Virus record (IMG/VR): IMGVR_UViG_3300025154_000253
Location: 1-37,019 of that record
DNA length: 37,019 nt
Direction: 5' to 3' (one strand)
Origin: a virus
In this document: piece by piece, positions 16,876-37,016 of the stretch
Layout: every line of letters begins with the position of its first letter
Position numbering within the stretch: the stretch's first letter is position 1
Notes under the pieces: generated by a model
Told to the model about the DNA's origin: nothing
The model's database searches: none
What the model saw: only the letters and a program-made list of their open reading frames with translations
Program-made: the position numbers and the translations under genes

Positions 16876-17121
16876 TTATTTTTTCCTTTCTGTGTCCAAA
16901 TATTTTGCGCGTCGCTCTGACGCGGTATTGATAAAGTTCTGAATATCGGGCGGACGGGCATCTGCCAAATGGGGAGGCAGTCCGCGCCAGATGATATTAT
17001 TCGCCTGCGGTACGCGGTGCATCGGAACCCCACACACCTGACAGAAAACTATCGTTGTATACACCATAGAATGTTCTACTTCCTGTGAGTGCGTCCCGTC
17101 GCTGTAAAAATAAGTCGGCAT
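16876..17121 (-). CDS. FmdB-like zinc-ribbon protein with first cysteine pair missing
   Basis: An 81-aa protein starting MPTYFYSDGTHSQEVEHSM and carrying C27-x2-C30 in VFCQVCGVPMHRVPQ, then a Trp/Pro region. The MPTY-Y start, E-V-x-H-S-M and C-x-x-C-G-x-P-M order match FmdB-family zinc ribbons, which normally have another C-x2-C near residues 8-11. Here that place reads SDGTH, so the first zinc ligands are changed. It overlaps the preceding gene by 125 bases, which is unusual in this genome. Confidence 0.6.
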   Translation of the reverse strand: MPTYFYSDGTHSQEVEHSMVYTTIVFCQVCGVPMHRVPQANNIIWRGLPPHLADARPPDIQNFINTASERRAKYLDTERKK

Positions 17122-18577
17122 TTTTCCTCTGTACTTTCACCATTCCAATCACGCGCCCATCGGAGGCGGTGGTCAATACCGGTAGATGCGTAATCTCAAA
17201 TTGCTCTTTATCCAGCGCGTTGATAAACTTGTTGCAGCCTGCGCCTTCAGGCTTGCCCGCATGATAGTAATCATCGAATACGGCAATCACGCCACCCTTC
17301 ATGCAAGTAACTATCATGCCGTCATTGTGGATCGTATCTTCGGAGTGACCACCATCAATAAAGATGAGATCACAATCTGACTTCCGTTTTACAAACAGCG
17401 TCTTCTTTGTGTCGCCTTCTACAAGTTCAATGTTTGCGCCTGTTGCCTTTATTCGCTTTTCAACTATTGCGCGCTCCCATCCAGCCTTTGACAATTCGCG
17501 CCTGAATTGTTCGCCTGTCTGTGTATCGAAAAGATCAAAGCCTTGATAGCATATCTCGTTTATTGGTCGGTGCTTTGCGGCTCGTTGTATCATCTGGACT
17601 GCGCGGCTGCCGCTCCATGTGCCAATCTCTACAATACTTTTAGGCTTTGTTTCGTCTATGATGTCCAATATTTGAGCATAACGACTTGCGCCATACTCAG
17701 GATATAAGTCTACCGATTCGCCCAGCAATCTTCCGAATATAAGCGCATGTTCGCCGCAATAATCCTGCCACCTCCACGCGCGCGCCAGTTTATGACGGTA
17801 TGTGTAGGGGGTTGTAAACGCTTCAAGTTTATTTGCCAAATCTTCAACGCCATCGTAAAGTTGATCGTCTTCGAGCAAGTCGGCGGCGTATCCAAAGCGG
17901 GGGGATAATACATTGGCGCCTGACGCCATTGCTTCAAGCAGTGGGAGCGGGCCACCCTCGCGGTATCCTGTAGCCAGAAACAAATCAATTTGCTGGTAGA
18001 ACAGGCGAATCGCCTCGTCTGATTCTGCGTTATATTCTTTTGCCGCCACGCCGAGAGAGTTCAGCTTTGTTACCACATCATCCCAGCCAGTGCCAACAAA
18101 AATAAACTGATAAGGCGCCATGTCATAATTCCAAGCCAAATCGAGCAATAATCCTTCACGTTTGCGTCCGTTTGGCTGTGGGTGTCCGACAATCCCGATC
18201 AAACGTTTTCTAAAACTGAATTGATCTGCGGCGGCATAGATAACCCATAGTTTTGCGGGGTCTACGCCCATCTCAATAAGTTCGTTGCGTCCTGTAAACG
18301 TCATGCAGGTTATCAGGTCGGCTCGCTCACACGCATCTATTAAAGCATCCTCGCTTCCGACGTTGCAGTGGGTGTACGTAATTGCGTGTTTTCCATTACT
18401 CGTCTTTTCAAATCCAGCTATTGTGTGCCAGGGGATGTGATAATTCAGGTCTGCGGTTATATCTACTTCCGCGCTTGTTGTTACCCCGTAGAGTTTTGCC
18501 AGTTCATTGATAAGCGGAAGCGACATTCTTTTCATGGCGGCGGATTGATAGGGAACTACAAAATGGATGCGCTTCAT
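16997..18577 (-). CDS. glycosyltransferase-methyltransferase fusion
   Basis: A 526-aa two-enzyme protein. Residues 1-280 resemble GT-B glycosyltransferases: VVPYQSAAMKRMSLPLINEL at the start, FVGTGWDD, and the donor-binding GYREGGPLPLLEAMASGANV near 205-225. Residues about 310-490 are a class I SAM methyltransferase of the Methyltransf_24 kind: SIVEIGTWSGSRAVQMI (motif I) and DLIFIDGGHSEDTIHNDG. The last 40 residues run over the FmdB-like gene and may be a late extension. Lying between capsid and connector genes beside another glycosyltransferase, it probably glycosylates and methylates virion proteins or host surface. Confidence 0.8.
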   Translation of the reverse strand: MKRIHFVVPYQSAAMKRMSLPLINELAKLYGVTTSAEVDITADLNYHIPWHTIAGFEKTSNGKHAITYTHCNVGSEDALIDACERADLITCMTFTGRNELIEMGVDPAKLWVIYAAADQFSFRKRLIGIVGHPQPNGRKREGLLLDLAWNYDMAPYQFIFVGTGWDDVVTKLNSLGVAAKEYNAESDEAIRLFYQQIDLFLATGYREGGPLPLLEAMASGANVLSPRFGYAADLLEDDQLYDGVEDLANKLEAFTTPYTYRHKLARAWRWQDYCGEHALIFGRLLGESVDLYPEYGASRYAQILDIIDETKPKSIVEIGTWSGSRAVQMIQRAAKHRPINEICYQGFDLFDTQTGEQFRRELSKAGWERAIVEKRIKATGANIELVEGDTKKTLFVKRKSDCDLIFIDGGHSEDTIHNDGMIVTCMKGGVIAVFDDYYHAGKPEGAGCNKFINALDKEQFEITHLPVLTTASDGRVIGMVKVQRKNADLFLQRRDALTGSRTFYGVYNDSFLSGVWGSDAPRTAGE

Positions 18578-19398
18578 GCCTTTCTCGCTTTCTGCAACCG
18601 TTCGATTTCCTTGCTGTTTTGCTCGTGCATGGCGATGGACAAACTTCGCACTACATGAGCGGGTTGGTTAATGTAATCCTCCATGCGTATCGGATAATTA
18701 ACCACATGTCCGCAATTCACGCCGCTATCACCCCAGAGTTGATAGCCCGTCAGTTTTGCGTAAAATGGAAAACGAATGTCAGAGCCGACAATATCCTTTA
18801 CCATGCGGAGGGGGCGGATTTCCTCACGCAAAGCTTTGATGTCTCCAGACGCAAGAGCCTTCACAATTCTTGGCAAATCATAAGGGGCTACGTCCATATC
18901 ATCCTCGATAATGTCCAGCTCGCCTTTCAGAATTTTACGGGTCGCCGTCACGACATCGCGGTGTATCAGGATACACCCCCAGCCGCTTGCGCCAATTGGA
19001 TACAACCTGTCTTTTTCTGGAACAAATGTAAACGGCTTCATCGGCATTGCGCCAGGCTCGCCATTCTCAAACCACACAGGAGCGACAGGGTTGAATGTGC
19101 GCCGCATGTAAAAGCCTGAGACATAGGGTAATTTATGGTTCCGCAACTTTTCAAGCGTATCAACTGGAAACATCATGTCTGAATCAAGAAACAAAATAAA
19201 CTCGCTGCTTGTTTTATCGTACCAATTGTTAAGGTGCATTTGGCGGGCTTCATAGCCCTTTGTCGCCCGCACATAAATCGGCGGGGTATCGCCTTTGCGT
19301 CGTTTTATTACTTCAATGCTGTCCCTGCATTGCCCGTTTTCGGTTTCACTACCGACTACGGCAAAGTAGACAGAGCCGGTGTATTCTTTTTTCTTCAT
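18574..19398 (-). CDS. GT-A (family 2-like) glycosyltransferase
   Basis: A 274-aa protein with a nucleotide-sugar fold: N-terminal VYFAVVGSETENGQCRDSIE, the ARQMHLNNWY helix, and the metal-binding DxD in FILFLDSDMMFP (about 67-78). Further motifs are YVSGFYMRR and the acceptor-side GASGWGCILIHRDV, plus EDMDVAPYDLP-type acidic residues. No membrane helix. Its stop overlaps the start of the fusion enzyme gene (ATGA), so the two should be made together and act in sequence. Confidence 0.8.
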   Translation of the reverse strand: MKKKEYTGSVYFAVVGSETENGQCRDSIEVIKRRKGDTPPIYVRATKGYEARQMHLNNWYDKTSSEFILFLDSDMMFPVDTLEKLRNHKLPYVSGFYMRRTFNPVAPVWFENGEPGAMPMKPFTFVPEKDRLYPIGASGWGCILIHRDVVTATRKILKGELDIIEDDMDVAPYDLPRIVKALASGDIKALREEIRPLRMVKDIVGSDIRFPFYAKLTGYQLWGDSGVNCGHVVNYPIRMEDYINQPAHVVRSLSIAMHEQNSKEIERLQKARKA

Positions 19399-19849: not shown

Positions 19850-20797
19850 TTACACTACATCCGAGAAAAAATATCCGGTGTCAGCTGCGACAACTTTTTG
19901 ATCCCATGCTTCGGAGTGTTGAAGAACGTCACTCTTGGTCTGGTCTTCGCGGTACTGAGTGATGGAACCAAGCCCGCCGCCGCCGTCCCATGAGTAGGTA
20001 TAGCCCGCGGAGGCTTCCATAATCCCAGGGGTCGGGGTGACGTAGGTCACAAGGCAGTCGTCATCAATTACAGCGGCGGCGGTCATTGACTGACCTTCAT
20101 TTGCGCTGTTGTATGACGCTTCGGCTACCCAATAATTCTGGACGCCAAATGCGGCGGCTAAAATTCCTTCGAGGGTTGTCTGAGTTGCAACCTGGGTATA
20201 TTTCACGCGATCAATGATGTCGGGATGATTCTTGATTGCCTGATCGACAATCGTACCAAGAACCATCGTGTTTGCCCCAACGCCGGTATTCAGACTGACG
20301 GTGCGGCGGGCGGTCAAAACGTCATTAACGGGGTCGCCGGACGTGAAATCGTCCCAATCGGTTGTTGCATTGCTATCGTCGGTTCCCCAAACGCCGGTCG
20401 TCATGAAGTCGGCGGCGAAAGCACGCTCCTTTCGGATAAGGCTTTGCTGTGCGAGCCAGCGTAAGCCGGTCTGCTCCAACGACATGGCCATTTGGTTGTT
20501 TGCGCGGTCTTCATCGGCAATTGGATGCTCCAACCCCCAAAGAATTGCAGCGCCGGTGGCGGTTTCAACGCCATAACCGGAGCGGGCAAATTTTCCGCCC
20601 GGGGCGCGGGTCTTCATTTCATCCACGAACCAATACTTCTTGGTCAGGATGTAATAGGTGAAACCCTTTTTGTCAACGCCGATTTTAGGGAATACTTTAC
20701 CGGCAACAAAACGACTTGTAGCCTGCATGTACCCCAAGAGCATATTGGTGAGGACGGGGTCAACCGCTTGAATGGATGAACCAGTAGGTTGAGACAT
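19850..20797 (-). CDS. major capsid protein
   Basis: A 315-aa protein lying after protease/scaffold and decoration genes. Typical features are an N-terminal segment with DPVLTNMLLGYMQATSRFVA and KVFPKIGVDK, the long spine helix region (LEQTGLRWLAQQSLIRKERA), DDFTSGDPVNDVLTARR, the NTMVLGTIVDQAIKNHPDII strand-helix, and a C-terminal A-domain-like end (GYTYSWDGGGGLGSI, YREDQTKSD). This matches HK97-fold capsids of the phage E-type/DUF5309-like group. It has a GAGG site before MSQPTGS. No N-terminal delta domain is seen; the scaffold is separate. Confidence 0.85.
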   Translation of the reverse strand: MSQPTGSSIQAVDPVLTNMLLGYMQATSRFVAGKVFPKIGVDKKGFTYYILTKKYWFVDEMKTRAPGGKFARSGYGVETATGAAILWGLEHPIADEDRANNQMAMSLEQTGLRWLAQQSLIRKERAFAADFMTTGVWGTDDSNATTDWDDFTSGDPVNDVLTARRTVSLNTGVGANTMVLGTIVDQAIKNHPDIIDRVKYTQVATQTTLEGILAAAFGVQNYWVAEASYNSANEGQSMTAAAVIDDDCLVTYVTPTPGIMEASAGYTYSWDGGGGLGSITQYREDQTKSDVLQHSEAWDQKVVAADTGYFFSDVV

Positions 20798-27996: not shown

Positions 27997-29323
27997 TTAC
28001 TCCATGGTAGAAACGGGAAGTCCTGTTCTTTTTGCGTATACATCATACGCCCTGCGCGCCATGTCTCTGTAAGAATATTTAACACGCCAGTTAGGAGGGT
28101 CTTTGTGTAACCAGCCATTGCGTAATTCAACCTCGCTTGCTCCCATAGACGCCATTGCGTGTTCCAGCCTTGATTTTGTTCCTGCACATCGAAACAACTG
28201 TATTTTTCTGGTGAACCCATCTTTTTCGAAAAAGTATTTCCAAAAATCGTCAAACCTATCCCAATAACCATCGTCTAGCGGGGAAAGGCACATTGGCGCG
28301 CCGGCGTCTGGGCAAAACGCCGTAAAACTTAATTGCAACGCACCTTTTTTGATTTCGTGCCTTGCGCGCCTAACGATTTCTTTGAGTTCATTGTAGTCTT
28401 CTGCTTGCTCCCCAGGAAGCCCTGCAATCATAAACCATCTAACGCCAATGCCCAGGTTTAATAGTTTGCAAGACAATTCAAACAAGGCTTCCGTTTCAAA
28501 TGGCTTGCCAATTATTTTTCTGAGTCGAGTCGACGGCGACTCGACTCCAAAGCGAACACTTTTTACTTTTCCGACTAAAGCGTTAATGCCTCCGCTGTCT
28601 CTTATCAAGTCCTGTGTTTGGCTATAGCTTGCGCTAAAATGTTCTAAAACTGTTAATTCGTCAAAGAAAGACAGCGCGGGCGCGTCATTGGTTACGACAT
28701 TAACTTTGTAGCCTGCGTTGATTAGCCTATCATATTGATTTTTTAAAAATTCCGCATCGTTCTCCCTGTAGGTGGTCGCCCACCCTATGTGACAAAATAG
28801 ACATTTTTTTTTTGCACGATCTGCTCGCAAAAATCCTAACAATCCCATCCTCTGCCATTACGGGGGGGGCGTCCCACGGAAAATCGTTGTCTGGTACTAC
28901 TTCTCTTGATTCTCCTGGAATCCAAGTGTTATGCAATGACCGCGCTTTGTCCGCTCCTTGCATAACAAGCGTCCGGATAAAATTTCTGCCTTCGCCAACA
29001 CATGTCATATCAACGTAAGGATCAAACACAATCGGAGACATTGCGCCTTGCCCGCCTAAAATAACCATCTGCTGCTTGTTTCTTTTTTCCCTCAACGGCT
29101 GGACTCCAACCCGTTTCAACGCTCTTGGGACGCATTTATATTCGTGTGGTGAAACAACGGTAACTAAAATAATATCAGCGTCTTTTGCTTCGCTCGCGAT
29201 AATTGCGCCGCTATTTTGCAATTCCCATTCTACGTATTTTGCGGCCAAGCCTCGAAAACGCTTTTCCGTACCGGCAACAGACGCATCTATTACAATATAC
29301 TTTTTATGCTTTTGTTTATCCAT
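27997..29323 (-). CDS. radical SAM protein with B12-binding-like domain, frameshifted
   Basis: Two overlapping frames (28730-29323 and 27997-28848) together make one protein of about 441 aa. Residues 1-165 look like a B12-binding-type Rossmann domain (KYIVIDASVAGTEKRFRGL, ILGGQGAMSPIVFD, DMTCVGEGRN). The radical SAM core follows with C170-KKK-C174-LF-C177, a GVESPSTRLRKIIGKP segment and WFMIAGLPGEQAEDY. The CX3CX2C iron-sulfur motif is split between frames at a run of ten As (minus strand; 28804-28813). With nine As the motif would read straight through. It could be slippage-corrected, phase variable, a broken gene, or a sequence error. Substrate unknown. Confidence 0.75.
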
Positions 29324-29982
29324 TTTTCGGCACCTTCTCTAATAGTCTCGCCTGATTTGTCTAATTTTTTTCTCCATTTTTCATATAGCTTTTTATCAAC
29401 CCCAAATTCTATGTCGCCGACTATACATCTTATTTTACCTGACGGCAATACCCTGCTCCAAGGACTAGACCCCGACCTGCCTTCGTCTTTGCCAACAACA
29501 TCATCAGAACCAAGAACAAAAACAGGATTTTCGCTCTCCACAAAATTCGCCAGCCCGCCGAAGCTGTGTTTCATATCCGCTAAAAAATCTGCGTCAAGTC
29601 CAAAGTCTGTCAACTCCACCGCGTCCCACCCGCTGATAAGGCCATAGTCCAACGAGCCTGTCGCCGTGCGCGTCATAATCGGCACGGCGCGGCGTTCGTT
29701 CGCATTCAGCATCCGCGAGGATTGCAACGCCCATACTTTTGTATCCGCGCCGTAGGCTTGCGACCAGACGCGGATGCGCTGATGACCATCATACACAAGA
29801 TGTTTATTTTTAACTTTTGGGCTGATCGCAATGGTTTGTAATTTCCCCAGTTTCCTCTCTGATTTTAATAGCTTGTCCGCCTGTGCCTTGCTTAACGTGA
29901 CGGGGTTATCTTTCCATAATTCAAGATCACCCAGTTTGACCTGTACTGGCGTCCATAAAATTTCTTTGTTTTTCGCGCTCAT
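29290..29982 (-). CDS. ParB/Srx-like nuclease-domain protein
   Basis: A 230-aa protein with the ParB N-terminal pattern in residues 10-105: VKLGDLELWKDNPVTLSKAQ, KLGKLQTIAIS, and the nucleotide-pocket YDGHQRIRVWSQ, then ERRAVPIM. Such domains in phages occur beside methyltransferases and terminases and bind CTP/ATP or act on DNA; they are distinct from plasmid partition. The C-terminal part (about 140-230) is unassigned. It overlaps the radical-SAM gene by 34 bases. A link between the two is suggested only by this overlap. Confidence 0.75.
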   Translation of the reverse strand: MSAKNKEILWTPVQVKLGDLELWKDNPVTLSKAQADKLLKSERKLGKLQTIAISPKVKNKHLVYDGHQRIRVWSQAYGADTKVWALQSSRMLNANERRAVPIMTRTATGSLDYGLISGWDAVELTDFGLDADFLADMKHSFGGLANFVESENPVFVLGSDDVVGKDEGRSGSSPWSRVLPSGKIRCIVGDIEFGVDKKLYEKWRKKLDKSGETIREGAEKWINKSIKSIL

Positions 29983-30056
29983 CGTCCATCCTGGCTGTTT
30001 AATACGTTCTCGATCTCGACGCTGCCCAATACCGCATTGAGTTCGACAAACTTCAT
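29979..30056 (-). CDS. 25-aa ORF at the array edge
   Basis: ATG 30056 lies two bases inside the phage side of the last, truncated attC, and the stop overlaps the ParB-like start (ATGA). The peptide MKFVELNAVLGSVEIENVLN looks protein-like, but no ribosome-binding site precedes it. It may be the surviving 3' end of a phage gene whose front was removed when the cassette array joined or was trimmed. Confidence 0.35.
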   Translation of the reverse strand: MKFVELNAVLGSVEIENVLNSQDGR

Positions 30057-30057
30057 C

Positions 30058-30136
30058 GCCCGATTAGTGGTTTTAGATCCATGCCCCCATTATACAACAT
30101 ATCCAAGCCCCCTGTCGGGTTCACGCTTTGTTAGGC
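30058..30136 (-). repeat. attC site 9 (terminal, R' box deleted)
   Basis: The right arm TTCACGCTTTGTTAGGC (30120-30136) is intact. The left arm reads GCCCGATTAGTGGTTT, which matches other sites (for example GCCGAAC...GCGTTAGTGGTTT at 30909) with about ten bases missing, including the conserved AAC. The cut site on the distal edge is thus lost, which should fix this end of the array in the phage. Confidence 0.7.
30089..30118 (-). promoter_or_regulatory. promoter within the terminal attC, reading into ParB
   Basis: On the minus strand TATAAT (30094-30089) is preceded by CCGACA (30118-30113) with an 18-base spacer. It lies in the variable central part of the last attC and points out of the array toward ParB, radical SAM and packaging genes. 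It may replace native transcription at the insertion. Confidence 0.4.
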
Positions 30137-30156
30137 TTCGCCGCCGTTACCGCGGA

Positions 30157-30294
30157 TTATTGTATTGCGACTGACACGGCGAAGACTAAACCTGTAACGG
30201 CGGGGTGGACTTTCGCCACCTTTAGCATTCTATGACCATGCGAACGTTTTCTTTCTACGCCAGGCAGAGGGTTCAAGCACGCCGAAACATTCAT
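30157..30294 (-). CDS. doubtful 45-aa ORF of the most distal cassette
   Basis: The cassette between attC 8 and attC 9 (30137-30325) has no long ORF. The best frame starts at ATG 30294 without a clear ribosome-binding site and encodes MNVSACLNPLPGVERKRSHG, ending VTGLVFAVSVAIQ. Strong inverted repeats (30136-30143 with 30177-30184; 30141-30150 with 30194-30203; 30204-30208 with 30216-30220) overlap it, so the cassette may instead make a structured RNA. Confidence 0.3.
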   Translation of the reverse strand: MNVSACLNPLPGVERKRSHGHRMLKVAKVHPAVTGLVFAVSVAIQ

Positions 30295-30325
30295 TTGATA
30301 AAGTGCGCCTGTTTGCAAGATAGGG

Positions 30326-30454
30326 GGCTAGCGGTTTGCGTTACTGGCTTTGCCAAGCCAGCATTTCGCAATCTTCACACATATCACTTTTGCGGGCAAC
30401 GGATTCACCGCAAACCGAACACATAGGCAAAATCCAGTGCACGCTTTGTTCGGC
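30326..30454 (-). repeat. attC site 8 (degenerate R')
   Basis: The right arm is TGCACGCTTTGTTCGGC, ending at 30454. The left arm is GGCTAGCGGTTTGCGTTACTGG (first 7 bases 30326-30332), where the needed AAC has become AGC. The arms pair, and an inner stem CGGTTTGCG/CGCAAACCG (30332-30340 with 30409-30417) is perfect. The mutated core should weaken recombination. Confidence 0.75.
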
Positions 30455-30583
30455 GGCAATTTCTTCGGGAGTGGCTTCACGGAACGCGACGGTAGGCTCA
30501 TCAACACGCCCCCATTTGAGGACATAAACACCTACGAATTGAACAGACTCATCAGACGGCAACTCAACCATTTTGAATAACAT
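30341..30583 (-). CDS. cassette protein with zinc-ribbon tail
   Basis: An 80-aa product with AGGAG nine bases before ATG 30583. It begins MLFKMVELPSDESVQFVGVY and carries C54-x2-C57 and C68-x2-C71 (MCSVCGESVARKSDMCEDCE), a plausible zinc ribbon. From about residue 44 onward the sequence is read from attC 8, so the zinc ribbon is coded by the recombination site itself. That could be real use of attC as coding DNA or a chance frame. Function unknown. Confidence 0.6.
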   Translation of the reverse strand: MLFKMVELPSDESVQFVGVYVLKWGRVDEPTVAFREATPEEIAAEQSVHWILPMCSVCGESVARKSDMCEDCEMLAWQSQ

Positions 30584-30606
30584 ATTTTCTCCTTTGCGGG
30601 ATGTCT

Positions 30607-30698
30607 GCCGAACGGCAAGCGTTACTTGCTCGCCGAATTGATGGAATCACCAACGCTGACCAGAGCCGAAGGCGGGGCAAGTGCACGCATTGTTCGGC
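30607..30698 (-). repeat. attC site 7
   Basis: A 92-bp site with GCCGAACGGCAAGCGTTACTTGC at the left and GCAAGTGCACGCATTGTTCGGC at the right (plus strand). The core triplets AAC/GTT are intact and the arms pair over about 20 bases. Its centre holds the last 25 codons of the preceding cassette ORF. Confidence 0.85.
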
Positions 30699-30885
30699 GG
30701 CGTTCAAGTTCAGCGGTGATGATTTTGACAAAATACTTATTTTTTTCAAGACGATTATTGACAGAGCCATGACTGTACGATGTGACATCGTGGAGCAAAG
30801 CCAACTCGCACACCTTAATATCATTCTGACTATCCAGCAAATCGCTTTCAAGTTCACTCGTTGGGATTTCTTTTATATCAACCAT
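30622..30885 (-). CDS. cassette-encoded hypothetical protein
   Basis: An 87-aa acidic helical product (MVDIKEIPTSELESDLLDSQ) with a long helix to about residue 63 (KNKYFVKIITAELERR). GAAAGAAGGAAAC precedes the ATG, the same leader as in two other cassettes. The tail from about residue 64 (TMRALAPPSALVSVGDSINS) comes from attC 7. No family recognised. Confidence 0.6.
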   Translation of the reverse strand: MVDIKEIPTSELESDLLDSQNDIKVCELALLHDVTSYSHGSVNNRLEKNKYFVKIITAELERRRTMRALAPPSALVSVGDSINSASK

Positions 30886-30908
30886 GTTTCCTTCTTTCTC
30901 GGCAAGCC

Positions 30909-30999
30909 GCCGAACGGACTAGCGTTAGTGGTTTGCGGGTTGCGCCACGAACCACAGCCCACAAGCGACGCAAGCCGTCGCCTGCACGCTTTGTTATGC
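30909..30999 (-). repeat. attC site 6
   Basis: A 91-bp site: GCCGAACGGACTAGCGTTAGTGG at the left and TGCACGCTTTGTTATGC at the right (plus strand). Both AAC and GTT are intact. The stop codon of the cassette ORF (TTA at 30994-30996 on plus) lies inside the R'' box, a layout often seen in integron cassettes. Confidence 0.85.
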
Positions 31000-31266
31000 G
31001 GCGGGTTTGTTTTTACTGCCTTTTGGACGCCCGCCAAGCCTGCCGTTATTAGCGGACGATTTTTGTTTTGCCTTGCTGGTGGATGATCCACCTTTGCGAC
31101 CAAGTTCTGCCGCTGTGCTGACATCCACAATATCAGACCAGTTATATGCTTGCCCATCATCATCCACAAAAACAGGATGACCATAAGAACTGGCGGCGTG
31201 GGCGGTTGTTAGCCGCCCACTTACCTTTGAACCATCAAGTAATGTTGCTGTTGCTTTGGTATCCAT
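30994..31266 (-). CDS. cassette protein with Gly/Lys-rich DNA-binding-like tail
   Basis: A 90-aa product: a small beta domain (ATLLDGSKVSGRLTTA, HPVFVDDDGQAYNWSDIVDV), then AELGRKGGSSTSKAKQKSSA and RLGGRPKGSKNKPAA. The GRKGG-S-x-x-S...GGRP tail is an AT-hook-like motif common in small DNA-associated proteins. Its ATG overlaps the stop of the preceding gene (TAATG), so the cassette carries two coupled genes. Confidence 0.65.
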   Translation of the reverse strand: MDTKATATLLDGSKVSGRLTTAHAASSYGHPVFVDDDGQAYNWSDIVDVSTAAELGRKGGSSTSKAKQKSSANNGRLGGRPKGSKNKPAA

Positions 31267-31661
31267 TACAGACCTGCCAAAAGTTTTTCTGTTTCATCAA
31301 CTTCTGCGCCGATTGCAGAGAGCATTGTTTCGAGATTTGCAACTGCTACTCTTTTGCTCCAGCATTTATCCGCACCGTTCCAGCGGAAACCATTTGCTTT
31401 GAGCATATCTTTTTCGGCAAACGAGTTATAAGCCATGATAGTAATCATCGGTTCGGCGGGTGCATGGTTGGCGCTGTCTTGCAGTTGTTTGATTTCATTT
31501 TCCAACCGAGCCAACATCAACTTGCCTTCATCGACGCGTGACTGACCAAACTGACCATTTGCCATTGAGTGCCACTTGGATGTTTCAAGTTCGGCTTGCT
31601 TGCGGGCTACTGCTTCGAGGGCTTTCTTGTTGCTTTCTACGGGGTTGAGTTCGATATTCAT
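31266..31661 (-). CDS. cassette protein with DUF5710-like C-terminal domain
   Basis: A 131-aa protein. A coiled-coil half (ESNKKALEAVARKQAELETS, RLENEIKQLQDS) is followed by YNSFAEKDMLKANGFRWNGA and KCWSKRVAVANLETML. The pattern E-K-D-x-x-K-A-x-G-x-R-W-x...K-x-W resembles DUF5710-type modules seen in DNA-primase-like and mobile-element proteins. AAGGAGAT lies before ATG 31661. It has its own strong promoter (31692-31719). Confidence 0.65.
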   Translation of the reverse strand: MNIELNPVESNKKALEAVARKQAELETSKWHSMANGQFGQSRVDEGKLMLARLENEIKQLQDSANHAPAEPMITIMAYNSFAEKDMLKANGFRWNGADKCWSKRVAVANLETMLSAIGAEVDETEKLLAGL

Positions 31662-31691
31662 TTTTTTATCTCCTTGTTGGTTGATACCCTG

Positions 31692-31719
31692 ATTATATCC
31701 TAATCGTTTAGGTTGTCAA
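31692..31719 (-). promoter_or_regulatory. cassette-borne promoter with palindromic spacer
   Basis: On the minus strand TTGACA (31719-31714), a 16-base spacer, and TATAAT (31697-31692) give a near-ideal sigma-70 promoter. The spacer holds CCTAAACGATTAGG, a 5-bp inverted repeat with a 4-base centre, in the position of a repressor operator. It lies inside cassette 6 about 30 bases upstream of its first gene, so that cassette is independent of upstream transcription. Confidence 0.7.
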
Positions 31720-31769
31720 GGGTTGGAGATGACCAATTTCAGAGCAACTTTGAGACCGCGCAGATAGCC

Positions 31770-31867
31770 GCATAACGGTTTGCTTTACCAGCGTATGGTG
31801 GCGGGAGCGGGAAAAACTGTCCGCGAAGCCGAAGCCCACCATACGTCTGGTGCAAGCTGTGTTATGC
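31770..31867 (-). repeat. attC site 5
   Basis: A 98-bp site: GCATAACGGTTTGCTTTACCAGC at the left, TGCAAGCTGTGTTATGC at the right (plus strand), with inner arms CGTATGGTGG/CCACCATACG pairing. Core triplets are intact. It is the clearest hairpin of the set. The preceding ORF stops seven bases outside it. Confidence 0.9.
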
Positions 31868-31873
31868 GCCGCT

Positions 31874-32101
31874 CTATTTGAAACTATCATCGTTCCAGAG
31901 TTTCGACGCTTCAAACTCAGGAAACACTTTCGCCATATCTTCAATCATCAGAACGAAAAAGTTCATCAATTGAACTGGATCACCAAAGTGCATTTCTAAA
32001 ACTGTGTTTCCTGTATTGATTTCAAGCACGACAGTTTTTGCTGTCCGCTTGACTTTTCCTTCGATGTTGTAAATTTCAATTCGATTAGGCGTGTTGCTCA
32101 T
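31874..32101 (-). CDS. cassette-encoded hypothetical protein
   Basis: A 75-aa beta/alpha protein: MSNTPNRIEIYNIEGKVKRT, TVVLEINTGNTVLEMHFGDP, then a helix (LMNFFVLMIEDMAKVFPEFE). Coupled to the gene before it by ATGA (32098-32101), so cassette 5 carries two genes. No cysteines or membrane segment. Unknown family. Confidence 0.65.
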   Translation of the reverse strand: MSNTPNRIEIYNIEGKVKRTAKTVVLEINTGNTVLEMHFGDPVQLMNFFVLMIEDMAKVFPEFEASKLWNDDSFK

Positions 32102-32310
32102 ACTTCTTTCCTTTGCAAAAGTTTCAGGCGTAGTTGATTGGGCTTCACGGATTGCACCCGAAATTTACTGCCACGAATTTCAATGACTTCGCCTTCCCGA
32201 AACCAGCCGCCATGCACGGGAAATTTGCTTTCAAGTTCAAGCATTTTCTGCTTGAGTTCTTCTTCGGTTGCGGCATTGATTTGTTCAAACCTTCCTTGAC
32301 CTGTATCCAT
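32098..32310 (-). CDS. cassette-encoded small beta-barrel-like protein
   Basis: A 70-aa protein. Start 32310 is chosen over 32358 because AGGAG precedes it, and the longer frame would extend across the attC boundary. The product has a helix (EEELKQKMLELESKFPVHGG) and a beta part (EGEVIEIRGSKFRVQSVKPN). Unknown function; basic C-terminus (LRLKLLQRKEV). Confidence 0.65.
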   Translation of the reverse strand: MDTGQGRFEQINAATEEELKQKMLELESKFPVHGGWFREGEVIEIRGSKFRVQSVKPNQLRLKLLQRKEV

Positions 32311-32333
32311 AACTGACTCCTTTGCCCGAAGGC

Positions 32334-32461
32334 GCATAACGGACTGCATTACCCGCAAGTGGGCGGGGTAGATAAAACTTCAAGATGTGGATAATCTCGA
32401 AGGTGGGAAAATGCCTGTAAAGGCGCAGACTCCCACTTGTCGGGTGCATGCTTTGTTAGGC
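32334..32461 (-). repeat. attC site 4
   Basis: A 128-bp site: GCATAACGGACTGCATTACCCGC at the left and TGCATGCTTTGTTAGGC at the right (plus strand), with AAGTGGG/CCCACTT inner arms. Core triplets intact. The final 26 or so codons of the methyltransferase ORF run into it. Confidence 0.88.
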
Positions 32462-33057
32462 GCAGAGAAGACATGCAAGCCTAGAGATGGGATGACGCAA
32501 TTACGAAGGATTTGCCGTTTATTAGGCAACTTATATTTACTCAAATCAATTCCGTGTAATTCTTGCAAATCAGGGATTTGCGCATTCCTTATCTTTGCGC
32601 CAGTTATTTCGATTTCAGGAATATTGAAATTAGACCAGAACAGATGACGATGAAGGCGGGCGGTTGGTTGAATGAGTGGCTCATAATATGGATTGACGTT
32701 CTCGACAACCCAATTAGATTTACAGTTAACTTGCAAAAATAGAATTTCCTGATATAGCTTCATATCTGGATACACAGGCTCTACACCACGAAAACGTACG
32801 CCAATATTCTGACGAAAGCTGGAATGACTCTGGCAAGGCGGGCTTGACCATATAAAATCAAACTCGCTGTAATGCTCTGCAAGATAGGCGTGAGCATCGC
32901 CAATGATTAGGGTGTCTTGTGGGTACAGGTCTGCGTAAACTTTCGCAATATCGGGATTGAACTCAACGGCGGTTACTTCCACGCCTTCCCATAATTTGCG
33001 ATTACCGCCAATGCCTGCGTACAGATTCAATGCTTTGTACAGATTCAATGCTTTCAA
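32380..33057 (-). CDS. short C5-cytosine DNA methyltransferase (cassette gene)
   Basis: A 225-aa Dcm-type enzyme: LNLYAGIGGN (motif I, SAM binding), SSPPCQSHS with C75 (motif IV nucleophile), VVENV with E119 (motif VI), QPTARLHRHLFW (motif VIII) and RNCVIPSLGL (motif X-like). It is short and lacks a sizeable target-recognition domain. It starts at TTG (33055-33057) with AGGAG nine bases upstream. The first codons contain an exact 18-bp tandem repeat giving KALNLY twice. About 26 C-terminal residues are read from attC. It probably protects phage DNA from restriction. Confidence 0.85.
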   Translation of the reverse strand: MKALNLYKALNLYAGIGGNRKLWEGVEVTAVEFNPDIAKVYADLYPQDTLIIGDAHAYLAEHYSEFDFIWSSPPCQSHSSFRQNIGVRFRGVEPVYPDMKLYQEILFLQVNCKSNWVVENVNPYYEPLIQPTARLHRHLFWSNFNIPEIEITGAKIRNAQIPDLQELHGIDLSKYKLPNKRQILRNCVIPSLGLHVFSAPNKACTRQVGVCAFTGIFPPSRLSTS

Positions 33058-33073
33058 GTAACTATGCTCCTGC

Positions 33074-33170
33074 GCCTAACGGCAAGCGTTAGTGGCAAGT
33101 GGCGGCGGATGTAGAATCGCCGTCAGATTTGCCAACGCCCGCCACTTGTCCACTGCACGCATTGTTGGGC
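33074..33170 (-). repeat. attC site 3
   Basis: A 97-bp site: GCCTAACGGCAAGCGTTAGTGG at the left and CCACTGCACGCATTGTTGGGC at the right (plus strand), with inner arms CAAGTGGCGG/CCGCCACTTG. GCCTAAC fits the consensus fully. It is a near-ideal attC. Confidence 0.9.
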
Positions 33171-33370
33171 GTAAATGCACACCTACAATTAACGTGCTTT
33201 GGTGGAAGTGTAACAAAACGAATGATGTATGTCACGCCACGAAATTTTTTATAAACCAGCATTACCTCTGTGCCAAGTTCATCATCAAAAGAAACGTGGT
33301 TTTGCTCTTTGATGAAAAGCAATGCCAGCCGTTCAAAAAAACCTACTTGTTTTGGTTGCCAATTTTTCAT
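33089..33370 (-). CDS. cassette-encoded hypothetical protein
   Basis: A 93-aa product (MKNWQPKQVGFFERLALLFI) with an N-terminal helix, then GTEVMLVYKKFRGVTYIIRF beta strands. From about residue 68 (NNACSGQVAGVGKSDGDSTS) it is attC-coded. No clear ribosome-binding site lies between the cassette junction and ATG 33370, only ten bases away. Unknown family. Confidence 0.55.
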   Translation of the reverse strand: MKNWQPKQVGFFERLALLFIKEQNHVSFDDELGTEVMLVYKKFRGVTYIIRFVTLPPKHVNCRCAFTPNNACSGQVAGVGKSDGDSTSAATCH

Positions 33371-33378
33371 AAGATTAC

Positions 33379-33504
33379 GCCCAACGGTTTGCGTTAAGCG
33401 CGGCTGGTAACTTTGCGCTTCTTCGCAGGGGATTTACTGCCTGCGGTGGATGGCTGCTTTTTAGCGGGAGACTCTAAAGCCGTCGCTTGCACGCCGTGTT
33501 CTAC
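33379..33504 (-). repeat. attC site 2
   Basis: A 126-bp site: GCCCAACGGTTTGCGTTAAGCGC at the left and TTGCACGCCGTGTTCTAC at the right (plus strand). The outer boxes are imperfectly complementary, but AAC and GTT are kept. A long centre codes the Lys/Ser/Pro-rich tail of the cassette ORF. Confidence 0.8.
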
Positions 33505-33696
33505 GGCTTCATATTTGCGCTTGAGTCTGATGTATGTTGATCGCTCATAACATGGGATATATTCATTGTGCAAACACGGATTAGTAACCATGCACTGACA
33601 ATCATTACACCATTCCCAATAACCCGATGCGCTTTCTTCGTAGTTGTGCATGTGCTTACCATTGACACCTTCGCCTACAAGTTTACTGATTGGCAT
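33394..33696 (-). CDS. cassette protein with cysteine cluster and basic attC-coded tail
   Basis: A 100-aa product. The core has WCNDCQCMVTNPCLHNEYIP with a C-x2-C-x-C...C cluster, likely zinc binding, then a helix (ERSTYIRLKRKYEAVEHG). The last 34 residues (ALESPAKKQPSTAGSKSPAK, then KRKVTSRA) come from attC 2 and resemble a histone-H1-like tail. The leader GAGAAAGAAGGTAAT precedes ATG 33696. Confidence 0.6.
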   Translation of the reverse strand: MPISKLVGEGVNGKHMHNYEESASGYWEWCNDCQCMVTNPCLHNEYIPCYERSTYIRLKRKYEAVEHGVQATALESPAKKQPSTAGSKSPAKKRKVTSRA

Positions 33697-33719
33697 ATTA
33701 CCTTCTTTCTCAACGAGCC

Positions 33720-33830
33720 GTAGAACGGCTTGCGTAACCCGCGTGTGCGAGAACGCAAGACCGTAAATTTATTGATCAATACCTATGCCAACCGTGACGT
33801 TGCACATGTCAGGTTCACGCATTGTTAGAT
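33720..33830 (-). repeat. attC site 1
   Basis: A 111-bp site: GTAGAACGGCTTGCGTAACCCGC at the left and TTCACGCATTGTTAGAT at the right (plus strand). On the minus strand R'' is ATCTAAC, a full consensus match. It closes the first cassette, nearest the phage gene at 34126. Confidence 0.82.
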
Positions 33831-34096
33831 GCGACAATTTCATGCGCTTCGACATCCTCATCAACATTCTCAATGATGCGAGCATTCTCATTCGGCTGAT
33901 CTCCCCAGCCATCAAGGTCGTTCAAATCGCTATGAAACAAAACCATGCACCGACCTATCATTGATGCTATTTCTTCTGGCTCATGGAGGTTATAAAAAGT
34001 CTTCCACCATTCGTCATCAACAGCATCAATTACGGCATCGTCCAATTCTAGGTTGATGGTTTTGGTTACAGTGACTTCAAAAATTCTTTTACCCAT
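33815..34096 (-). CDS. first cassette protein, acidic
   Basis: A 93-aa very acidic product: beta start (MGKRIFEVTVTKTINLELDD), DDEWWKTFYNLHEPEEIASM, then DLNDLDGWGDQPNENARI and a Glu/Asp tail. The charge is DNA-mimic-like, as in anti-restriction proteins, but that is only suggestive. The leader GAGAAAGAAGGAACA precedes the ATG. Its stop lies within attC 1. Confidence 0.6.
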   Translation of the reverse strand: MGKRIFEVTVTKTINLELDDAVIDAVDDEWWKTFYNLHEPEEIASMIGRCMVLFHSDLNDLDGWGDQPNENARIIENVDEDVEAHEIVASNNA

Positions 34097-34125
34097 TGTT
34101 CCTTCTTTCTCAAGGGAGCATTTAA

Positions 34126-34374
34126 CTATGTGTTTAGCAATTCTGTATATATGGTCTCAACGTACTTTCTTGTTGCAGTGCGGATAATCTCATTCTCGTT
34201 GTAAAAATAACCCAAGCGAGTTGAAATATAAGCCAGCATCAAATTTGTCTCATCATCCAACCGATATAATTTCGGTTTCCCTAATCCCGATGACTTTCTG
34301 CCCTGTGTTCCTTTGCGGGTATAGGTTGAAATCTTGCCGTCTACCGTTTTGCGAGTAAAAATATTTGACGCCAT
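34126..34374 (-). CDS. small basic DNA-binding-like phage protein at the array junction
   Basis: An 82-aa basic protein: MASNIFTRKTVDGKISTYTR, KSSGLGKPKLYRLDDETNLM, then a helical end (NENEIIRTATRKYVETIYTE). A strand followed by two helices with R-T-A-x-x-K-Y-V recalls ribbon-helix-helix regulators. Its TAG stop supplies the G of the GTTAAAT junction, so the array joins exactly at the end of this gene and leaves it intact. Confidence 0.65.
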   Translation of the reverse strand: MASNIFTRKTVDGKISTYTRKGTQGRKSSGLGKPKLYRLDDETNLMLAYISTRLGYFYNENEIIRTATRKYVETIYTELLNT

Positions 34375-34376
34375 AA

Positions 34377-34610
34377 CTAGAACTCCATTTCAATTTCGAC
34401 AGGCTGATCCAGTTCCGCCCGTATCACGTCCGTCCATTTCTCCTTATACTCGCATCCATCGGTAAAACGGTGCGGGCATACCAGGCGGCGCTTATAGCGG
34501 GGTCGATCGGGGTCGGTTGTCTTGATCTCCTGCTCCTGCACGATCAGGGGATCCCGGTGCTTCGGGCAGGAGCAGGAGCAGGAGATAACGTAGCGGTTAT
34601 TGTAAATCAT
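34377..34610 (-). CDS. cysteine-rich hypothetical protein
   Basis: A 77-aa protein with C-x-C-x-C then H (SCSCSCPKHRDP) and a later CPHRF...C pair, likely binding one or two zincs, and an acidic C-terminus (IRAELDQPVEIEMEF). It starts four bases inside the end of the neighbouring recombination-like gene (ATGA). Unknown function. Confidence 0.65.
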   Translation of the reverse strand: MIYNNRYVISCSCSCPKHRDPLIVQEQEIKTTDPDRPRYKRRLVCPHRFTDGCEYKEKWTDVIRAELDQPVEIEMEF

Positions 34611-36355: not shown

Positions 36356-36434
36356 TGGTAGCGCAGGCGGGATTTGAACCCACGATCTCCAGGGTATGAA
36401 CCTAGCGAGGACGACCAGACTCCTCTACCGCGCA
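36356..36434 (-). tRNA. tRNA-Met-like (anticodon CAT), CCA encoded
   Basis: Minus-strand cloverleaf of 79 bases. The acceptor TGCGCGG pairs with CTGCGCT, with a mismatch at pair 1-72. The D arm is GAGG/CCTC, including A11-U24, with a GG-bearing loop. The anticodon arm is CTAGG-TTCATAC-CCTGG, anticodon CAT after U33. The T arm is GTGGG-TTCAAAT-CCCGC. The 3' end ACCA is encoded. The 1-72 mismatch and A11-U24 are initiator traits, but the three G-C pairs of initiator anticodon stems are missing. It could also be an Ile tRNA with modified CAU. Confidence 0.85.
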
Positions 36435-36916: not shown

Positions 36917-37016
36917 AGACAAAAGACGCTCTGGCGGGCGTAATAGAAAATCGGGATACCTATCTTTTATTCACTGGCGTTACCCGTTTACGATTTACGG
37001 ATGCCGCCAGCCCGAA
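36917..37016. repeat. terminal direct repeat, right copy
   Basis: Copy of 1-100 with one difference (T at 36930). The final three bases of the window (AAT, after the repeat) no longer match. In the circular molecule this is the transcribed leader; the copy stops before the second hairpin arm. Confidence 0.9.

Follow-up and report, generated by a model that had tools for sequence, protein, structure and literature searches.

The array and its attC sites

The window analysed here is the whole of IMG/VR virus record IMGVR_UViG_3300025154_000253 (37,019 bases), a tailed-phage genome in which positions 30119–34125 hold a series of attC recombination sites separating small gene cassettes, the arrangement of a cluster of attC sites lacking an integron integrase (CALIN). 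We scanned IMG/VR with a degenerate attC pattern and aligned 29 sites from other contigs into a covariance model, R1; none of the training sites came from the window, which avoids circularity. R1 finds eight full-length attC sites within 3.5 kb, all on the minus strand (30326–33830; 33–66 bits, E 1.1e-7 to 1.7e-17), where a CALIN needs at least two neighbouring sites, and no further site in the 37 kb at E<=1. A position weight matrix version of the finder gave no matches in 705 kb of shuffled viral sequence. The R'', L'', L' and R' boxes are present in direct-repeat orientation in all eight sites, and when each bottom strand was folded as single-stranded DNA and compared with shuffles, five of the eight were more stable (z<=-2.4) and the remaining three were not distinctive.

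33720..33830, minus strand: attC1, first in array order; R'' ATCTAAC, R' GTTCTAC; R1 39.3 bits, E 1.5e-9; fold z -2.97
33379..33504, minus strand: attC2; R'' GTAGAAC, R' GTTGGGC; R1 45.5 bits, E 2.4e-11; fold z -1.0
33074..33170, minus strand: attC3; R'' GCCCAAC, R' GTTAGGC; R1 66.4 bits, E 1.7e-17; fold z -3.69
32334..32461, minus strand: attC4; R'' GCCTAAC, R' GTTATGC; R1 51.6 bits, E 3.8e-13; fold z -2.44
31770..31867, minus strand: attC5; R'' GCATAAC, R' GTTATGC; R1 51.2 bits, E 5.1e-13; fold z -5.64
30909..30999, minus strand: attC6; R'' GCATAAC, R' GTTCGGC; R1 33.0 bits, E 1.1e-7; fold z -0.4
30607..30698, minus strand: attC7; R'' GCCGAAC, R' GTTCGGC; R1 51.3 bits, E 4.8e-13; fold z -1.4
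30326..30454, minus strand: attC8; R'' GCCGAAC, R' GCTAGCC (crossover triplet mutated from GTT to GCT); R1 52.6 bits, E 2e-13; fold z -2.76
30119..30136, minus strand: R''-L'' arm of a ninth site, read from the sequence; L'-R' half lost

The initial annotation had described nine attC sites, all in one direction, and had proposed an attC covariance model as the check. The common direction holds for all eight model matches, and the ninth site is only a half: with the filters off R1 gives it (30045–30136) just 10.9 bits (E 0.044), and it does not fold (z +1.0). Here, at its distal end, the array has decayed.

The cassettes between these sites carry the following open reading frames (ORFs), most of them preceded by Shine–Dalgarno-like sequences.

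33815..34096, minus strand: cassette 1 ORF, 93 aa, function unassigned; weak phrog_19384 match; Shine–Dalgarno-like GAAGGA before ATG
33394..33696, minus strand: cassette 2 ORF, 100 aa, function unassigned; enters attC2
33089..33370, minus strand: cassette 3 ORF, 93 aa, function unassigned; enters attC3
32380..33057, minus strand: cassette 4 ORF, 225 aa, compact C5 DNA methyltransferase (PF00145 6.3e-8; phrog_363 3.4e-17); C-terminus extends into attC4
31874..32358, minus strand: cassette 5, two ORFs (32098–32358, 31874–32101); common to phage record G034
30994..31661, minus strand: cassette 6, ORFs 31266–31661 (131 aa) and 30994–31266 (90 aa); 105 bases at the 3' end 94% identical to phage record G004
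30622..30885, minus strand: cassette 7 ORF, 87 aa, function unassigned; remote homologues in the G002 and G007 arrays
30341..30583, minus strand: cassette 8 ORF, 80 aa, zinc-ribbon-like C-terminus; weak PF18912 match (1.1e-3, below cut-off)

Small ORFs running into the site, a feature picked out by the initial annotation, are confirmed: 73 of 88 cassette ORFs overlap attC across all phage arrays surveyed. Among GenBank phages, the single match was to a Vibrio phage methyltransferase gene (70%).

Cassette boundaries carry the integron crossover signature

An integron cassette opens with the hexamer TTRRRY, just past the crossover, and this hexamer pairs with the R'' box of that cassette, whereas R' in the same attC of the array is not its partner. 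The 5' end is exactly complementary to the cassette's own R'' in all seven internal cassettes of the window, each of which forms a unit from TTRRRY to RYYYAAC...G. Across 25 viral records with this attC type, every one of the four variable bases matches the cassette's own R'' in 62 of 89 cassettes; when R'' and R' of the same site are compared, 14 of 120 match (Fisher p 3e-18). Complementarity of R'' to the cassette's own 5' end is the mark of recombination at G^TTRRRY.

The upstream edge of the array is sharp and directly adjoins a stop codon.

34117..34126, minus strand: array 5' junction, TAG^TTAAATGC, read from the sequence
34126..34374, minus strand: phage gene encoding 82 aa, immediately preceding the array; array-bearing record G019 has a homologue

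The upstream gene terminates with the TAG of the junction, the crossover G is the last base of that codon, and the junction is complementary to the attC1 R'' box in eight of nine bases; it looks like an insertion at a secondary GTT site. We considered the 82-aa gene as a conserved attI-like locus and rejected it, as its G019 homologue sits 1.8 kb upstream of the first attC; a scan for relatives of the gene gave none beyond G019. Relatives with an empty site, sought through the flanking genes 34126–34610 and 29290–29982, were not found.

The array lies among phage genes and lacks an integrase

Tailed-phage genes in the window encode the terminase large subunit (TerL), portal, minor head protein, protease, major capsid protein, tape measure and endolysin, with replication genes at the left end. 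The integron integrase model TIGR02249 had no match to the record at E<=1e-3; the model also matches ordinary tyrosine recombinases, as seen in all 14 control genomes, and the same search detected no other tyrosine recombinase in the window. A complete integron comprises intI plus attI; the locus differs from one in having no intI and in its 5' junction, which is the end of a phage gene.

26064..27389, minus strand: terminase large subunit, about 2.9 kb downstream of the array; phrog_2 1.7e-28, PF17289 3.9e-12
19850..20797, minus strand: major capsid protein; phrog_1005 3.4e-73; defines the clade of relatives

These results agree with the initial annotation that the array has no integrase, lies inside a tailed-phage genome and is oriented with the phage transcript, the array strand being that of the late genes. 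Its neighbouring assignments fared less well: the upstream 'recombination genes' encode 370-aa and 194-aa proteins without an informative match, and the ParB assignment gained no confirmation from a family match, the one hit being a weak one to the methyltransferase family phrog_498.

The attC type recurs across phages, both related and unrelated

Among viral records in IMG/VR, about 27 have this attC type; of the first 25, 12 contain a tape-measure homologue, and others contain a terminase. The major capsid protein is 70–86% identical (aa) to those of attC-bearing relatives: G001 (6 attC), G034 (10 attC) and G039 (1 attC) at 82–86%, and G008 (3 attC), whose head–tail module is colinear, at 70%. 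G039 has its single attC just upstream of the portal gene and is 100% identical to G034 over 7.4 kb including that attC. No attC was found in the capsid relative G033, a 19-kb fragment, or in the remaining capsid relatives searched, and the terminase relatives G024 and G061 are also attC-bearing. A lone attC lies directly upstream of portal, inside the packaging module, in G034 (30929–31018, minus strand) and at L208 1674–1763.

Array positions and strands differ among the related phages G001, G034 and G008, and some arrays adjoin lysis or tail genes. A fixed insertion site upstream of the terminase on the same strand was also considered; G009, G012 and G021 break the pattern. Two further records contain integrase sequence. 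G018, a 67.7-kb viral record, has an intact integron integrase (L163 15003–15950 onward; E 4e-123), five attC and a tape-measure gene, and is possibly a phage with a complete integron. At the edge of the phage attC array in G004 lies the C-terminal remnant of an integron integrase (L140, 20941–21138, minus strand), a trace of transfer from an integron platform.

Phages share single cassettes that start at crossover points

Cassette 5 of the window matches G034 at 97.3% nucleotide identity over 329 bases and 91.6% over 107 (99% aa over 75 aa), whereas the two backbones are about 70% identical. Identity starts exactly at the G^TT crossover, and the upstream attC differs. Three further pairs of phages share a cassette and no other long nucleotide match: G016 and G034 (495 bases, 94.5%), G006 and G009 (531 bases, 88%) and G013 and G015 (310 bases, 96%). 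All four shared blocks start at CCG^TT, and those of G006/G009 and G013/G015 also end at the next crossover. Cassettes common to different phages lend support to the movement of cassettes that the initial annotation had envisaged.

Recognizable phage cassette proteins are mostly DNA methyltransferases

At most 11 of 87 phage cassette proteins have Pfam matches (one overlapping weak match aside), and ten of the 11 are DNA methyltransferases. Among ORFs of at least 200 aa, methyltransferases account for 10 of 11 in phages and at least 4 of 26 in sampled host cassettes (Fisher p 3e-5), the host count being a minimum from the first 25 host families and the host sample coming mostly from a few metagenome-assembled genomes, one of them unclassified. 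Phage cassette ORFs are also shorter than those of the host (median 88 aa; Mann–Whitney p 1e-6). The cassette shared by G016 and G034 encodes a Mom-like DNA modification protein, and top PADLOC matches among the cassettes are almost only of methyltransferase type. Such cargo fits the suggestion in the initial annotation that the array could be a source of anti-defence genes, and would be consistent with an anti-restriction function. One phage cassette protein has an FtsK gamma DNA-binding domain (alignment A3; E 7e-15).

The same attC family occurs in Anaerolineae integrons

When genomes were searched strictly for the short attC type, eight contigs emerged: five belong to Chloroflexota or Anaerolineales and three to other or unclassified bins. 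A full intI adjoins such attC in the Chloroflexota genomes G025 and G029. Within the class of G025, Anaerolineae, to which the Anaerolineales genomes G030 and G032 also belong, R1 finds attC in 49 of 249 genomes and intI scores above the curated cut-off in 65 of 249; one genome of the class has a capsid relative (46% aa). Because the same attC type, intI beside attC and a capsid relative all occur in this class, the phage host is probably a member of the Anaerolineae (Chloroflexota). The attC nearest the host intI in L194 (G025) and L196 (G029) are short and phage-like; other host sites are mostly about 129 nucleotides.

Other features of the window

To judge from a 100-base direct terminal repeat (1–100 and about 36917–37016, 99% identical), the genome may be a complete circle of about 36.9 kb, although the record is not listed as circular in IMG/VR. 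A B12-binding radical SAM protein (27997–29323, minus strand) is split over two frames at a ten-A run (GTGCAAAAAAAAAATGTC), and the split would reflect an indel introduced during assembly, a gene that is broken, or slippery frameshifting. Glycosyltransferase and glycosyltransferase–methyltransferase genes (16997–19398, minus strand) lie within the head–tail module and are conserved in G001, G008 and G034. Rfam over the window gives tRNA only, with a tRNA-Met (CAT) at 36356–36434 (minus strand), near the contig end.

Origin and traffic of the cassettes

Block 30119–34125 is a CALIN in a tailed phage, and we consider it likely that host IntI loads and shuffles its cassettes and that the phage transcribes them as counter-restriction cargo. 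During infection, the host integron integrase would recombine folded attC sites, with circular cassettes entering at the G^TT of a resident attC and other cassettes being excised. First entry may have been into a secondary GTT site, the stop codon at 34126 being one candidate, and the phage array would act as a passive landing pad. The promoterless cassettes, most with ribosome-binding sites, would be read co-directionally with the phage late genes. Orphan DNA methyltransferases and small proteins make up most of the cargo, which probably shields phage DNA from restriction. More tentatively, and with rather less confidence than in loading by host IntI, we propose that Anaerolineae phages keep their own pool of short-attC cassettes for DNA modification and counter-defence, traded between unrelated phages through host IntI; if so, the host cassette machinery doubles as a phage adaptation system.

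Several observations weigh against this interpretation. Just one window cassette has a recognized function. The array may be partly inert, because attC8 has lost its GTT and half of the distal site is gone. A search for the same cassettes in host integrons, advised by the initial annotation, found none among the host arrays sampled, phage–host cassette matches lying at just 24–36% aa. Phage attC are often shorter than host sites (about 90 against 129 nucleotides), a comparison biased by the discovery of most viral records through short attC. Finally, the blocks shared by the window and G034 and by G016 and G034 end just past R''/L'' and are followed by different attC stems; IntI alone does not account for such ends, which leave room for homologous recombination at conserved boxes.

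The alternative that survives best, though we judge it unlikely, is that homologous recombination accounts for most cassette movement between phages, with the conserved attC boxes (AACAAAGCGTGCA, TAACGCNNNCCGTT) serving phage recombinases as short islands of homology and IntI acting only in the original bacterial capture. It would predict blocks made of a cassette body plus R''/L'' with different stems, as in those same two pairs, and phages are mosaic in general; yet the G006/G009 and G013/G015 blocks are full G^TT-to-G^TT units complete with attC, boxes of about 13 bases would make inefficient substrates, and array places and orientations vary among related phages. A single illegitimate event that brought part of a host chromosomal integron into this phage, with no traffic since, would account for the distal half-site, the mutated GTT in attC8 and the missing integrase, but is already disfavoured and seems very improbable given different arrays in related phages, near-identical cassettes in otherwise different phages, and cassette content and attC lengths unlike those of host arrays. 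An assembly error, or contaminating host sequence fused to a phage contig, deserves hardly any weight even for a metagenomic contig: phage genes flank the array on both sides in one contig, the terminal repeat suggests a complete circle, and the presence of such arrays in relatives makes a chimaera unlikely, with capsid relatives from other metagenomes bearing attC and G034 and G039 identical across one.

Comparison with known systems and significance

Phage-borne CALINs are already known as a kind, because 17 have been published, with methyltransferases among their cargo, and examples include Tetrasphaera phage TJE1, Polaribacter phage P12002L and Pseudoalteromonas phage PH101 (Qi et al. 2023, PMC9892861). 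The initial annotation was right to call phages with attC sites little described, but such arrays had been both reported and tested experimentally, IntI1 recombining five of the six phage attC tested (PMC9892861). The window resembles those CALINs as an integrase-free attC cluster in a tailed phage, in one direction and with DNA methyltransferase cargo; it differs in its eight intact sites of Anaerolineae type and in belonging to a whole set of uncultivated array-bearing phages whose shared cassettes have crossover ends. New here are the setting in Anaerolineae, the repeated occurrence of arrays within a capsid clade, and the cassette-sized exchange between phages with crossover ends. With the Anaerolineae/Chloroflexota integrons of G025 and G029 the window shares an attC family found by the same model, whereas the host arrays have intI, mostly attC of about 129 nucleotides and longer, functionally diverse cassettes. 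A complete integron is known in a temperate phage, Vibrio anguillarum phage Va_90-11-286_p16 (PMC9892861). That phage likewise has integron parts within its genome, but integrons of its type include intI and are a piece of a host array, whereas the window lacks intI and the sampled host arrays did not contain its cassettes.

Orphan phage DNA modification genes include C5, N4/N6 and Dam-like methylases and a Mom-like protein. The cargo here is of the same type, but is borne on attC-bearing cassettes. Work on integrons has treated them as systems of bacteria, in the context of antibiotic resistance and, of late, phage defence. Our results place integron-type cassettes among the parts of phage genomes, recurring and common to phages with little or no other shared DNA. 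With named cassettes and named crossover points, cassette exchange between phages through IntI is now testable. If host integrase loads the cassettes, phages swap counter-restriction genes via a bacterial gene-capture system and can carry cassettes between hosts.

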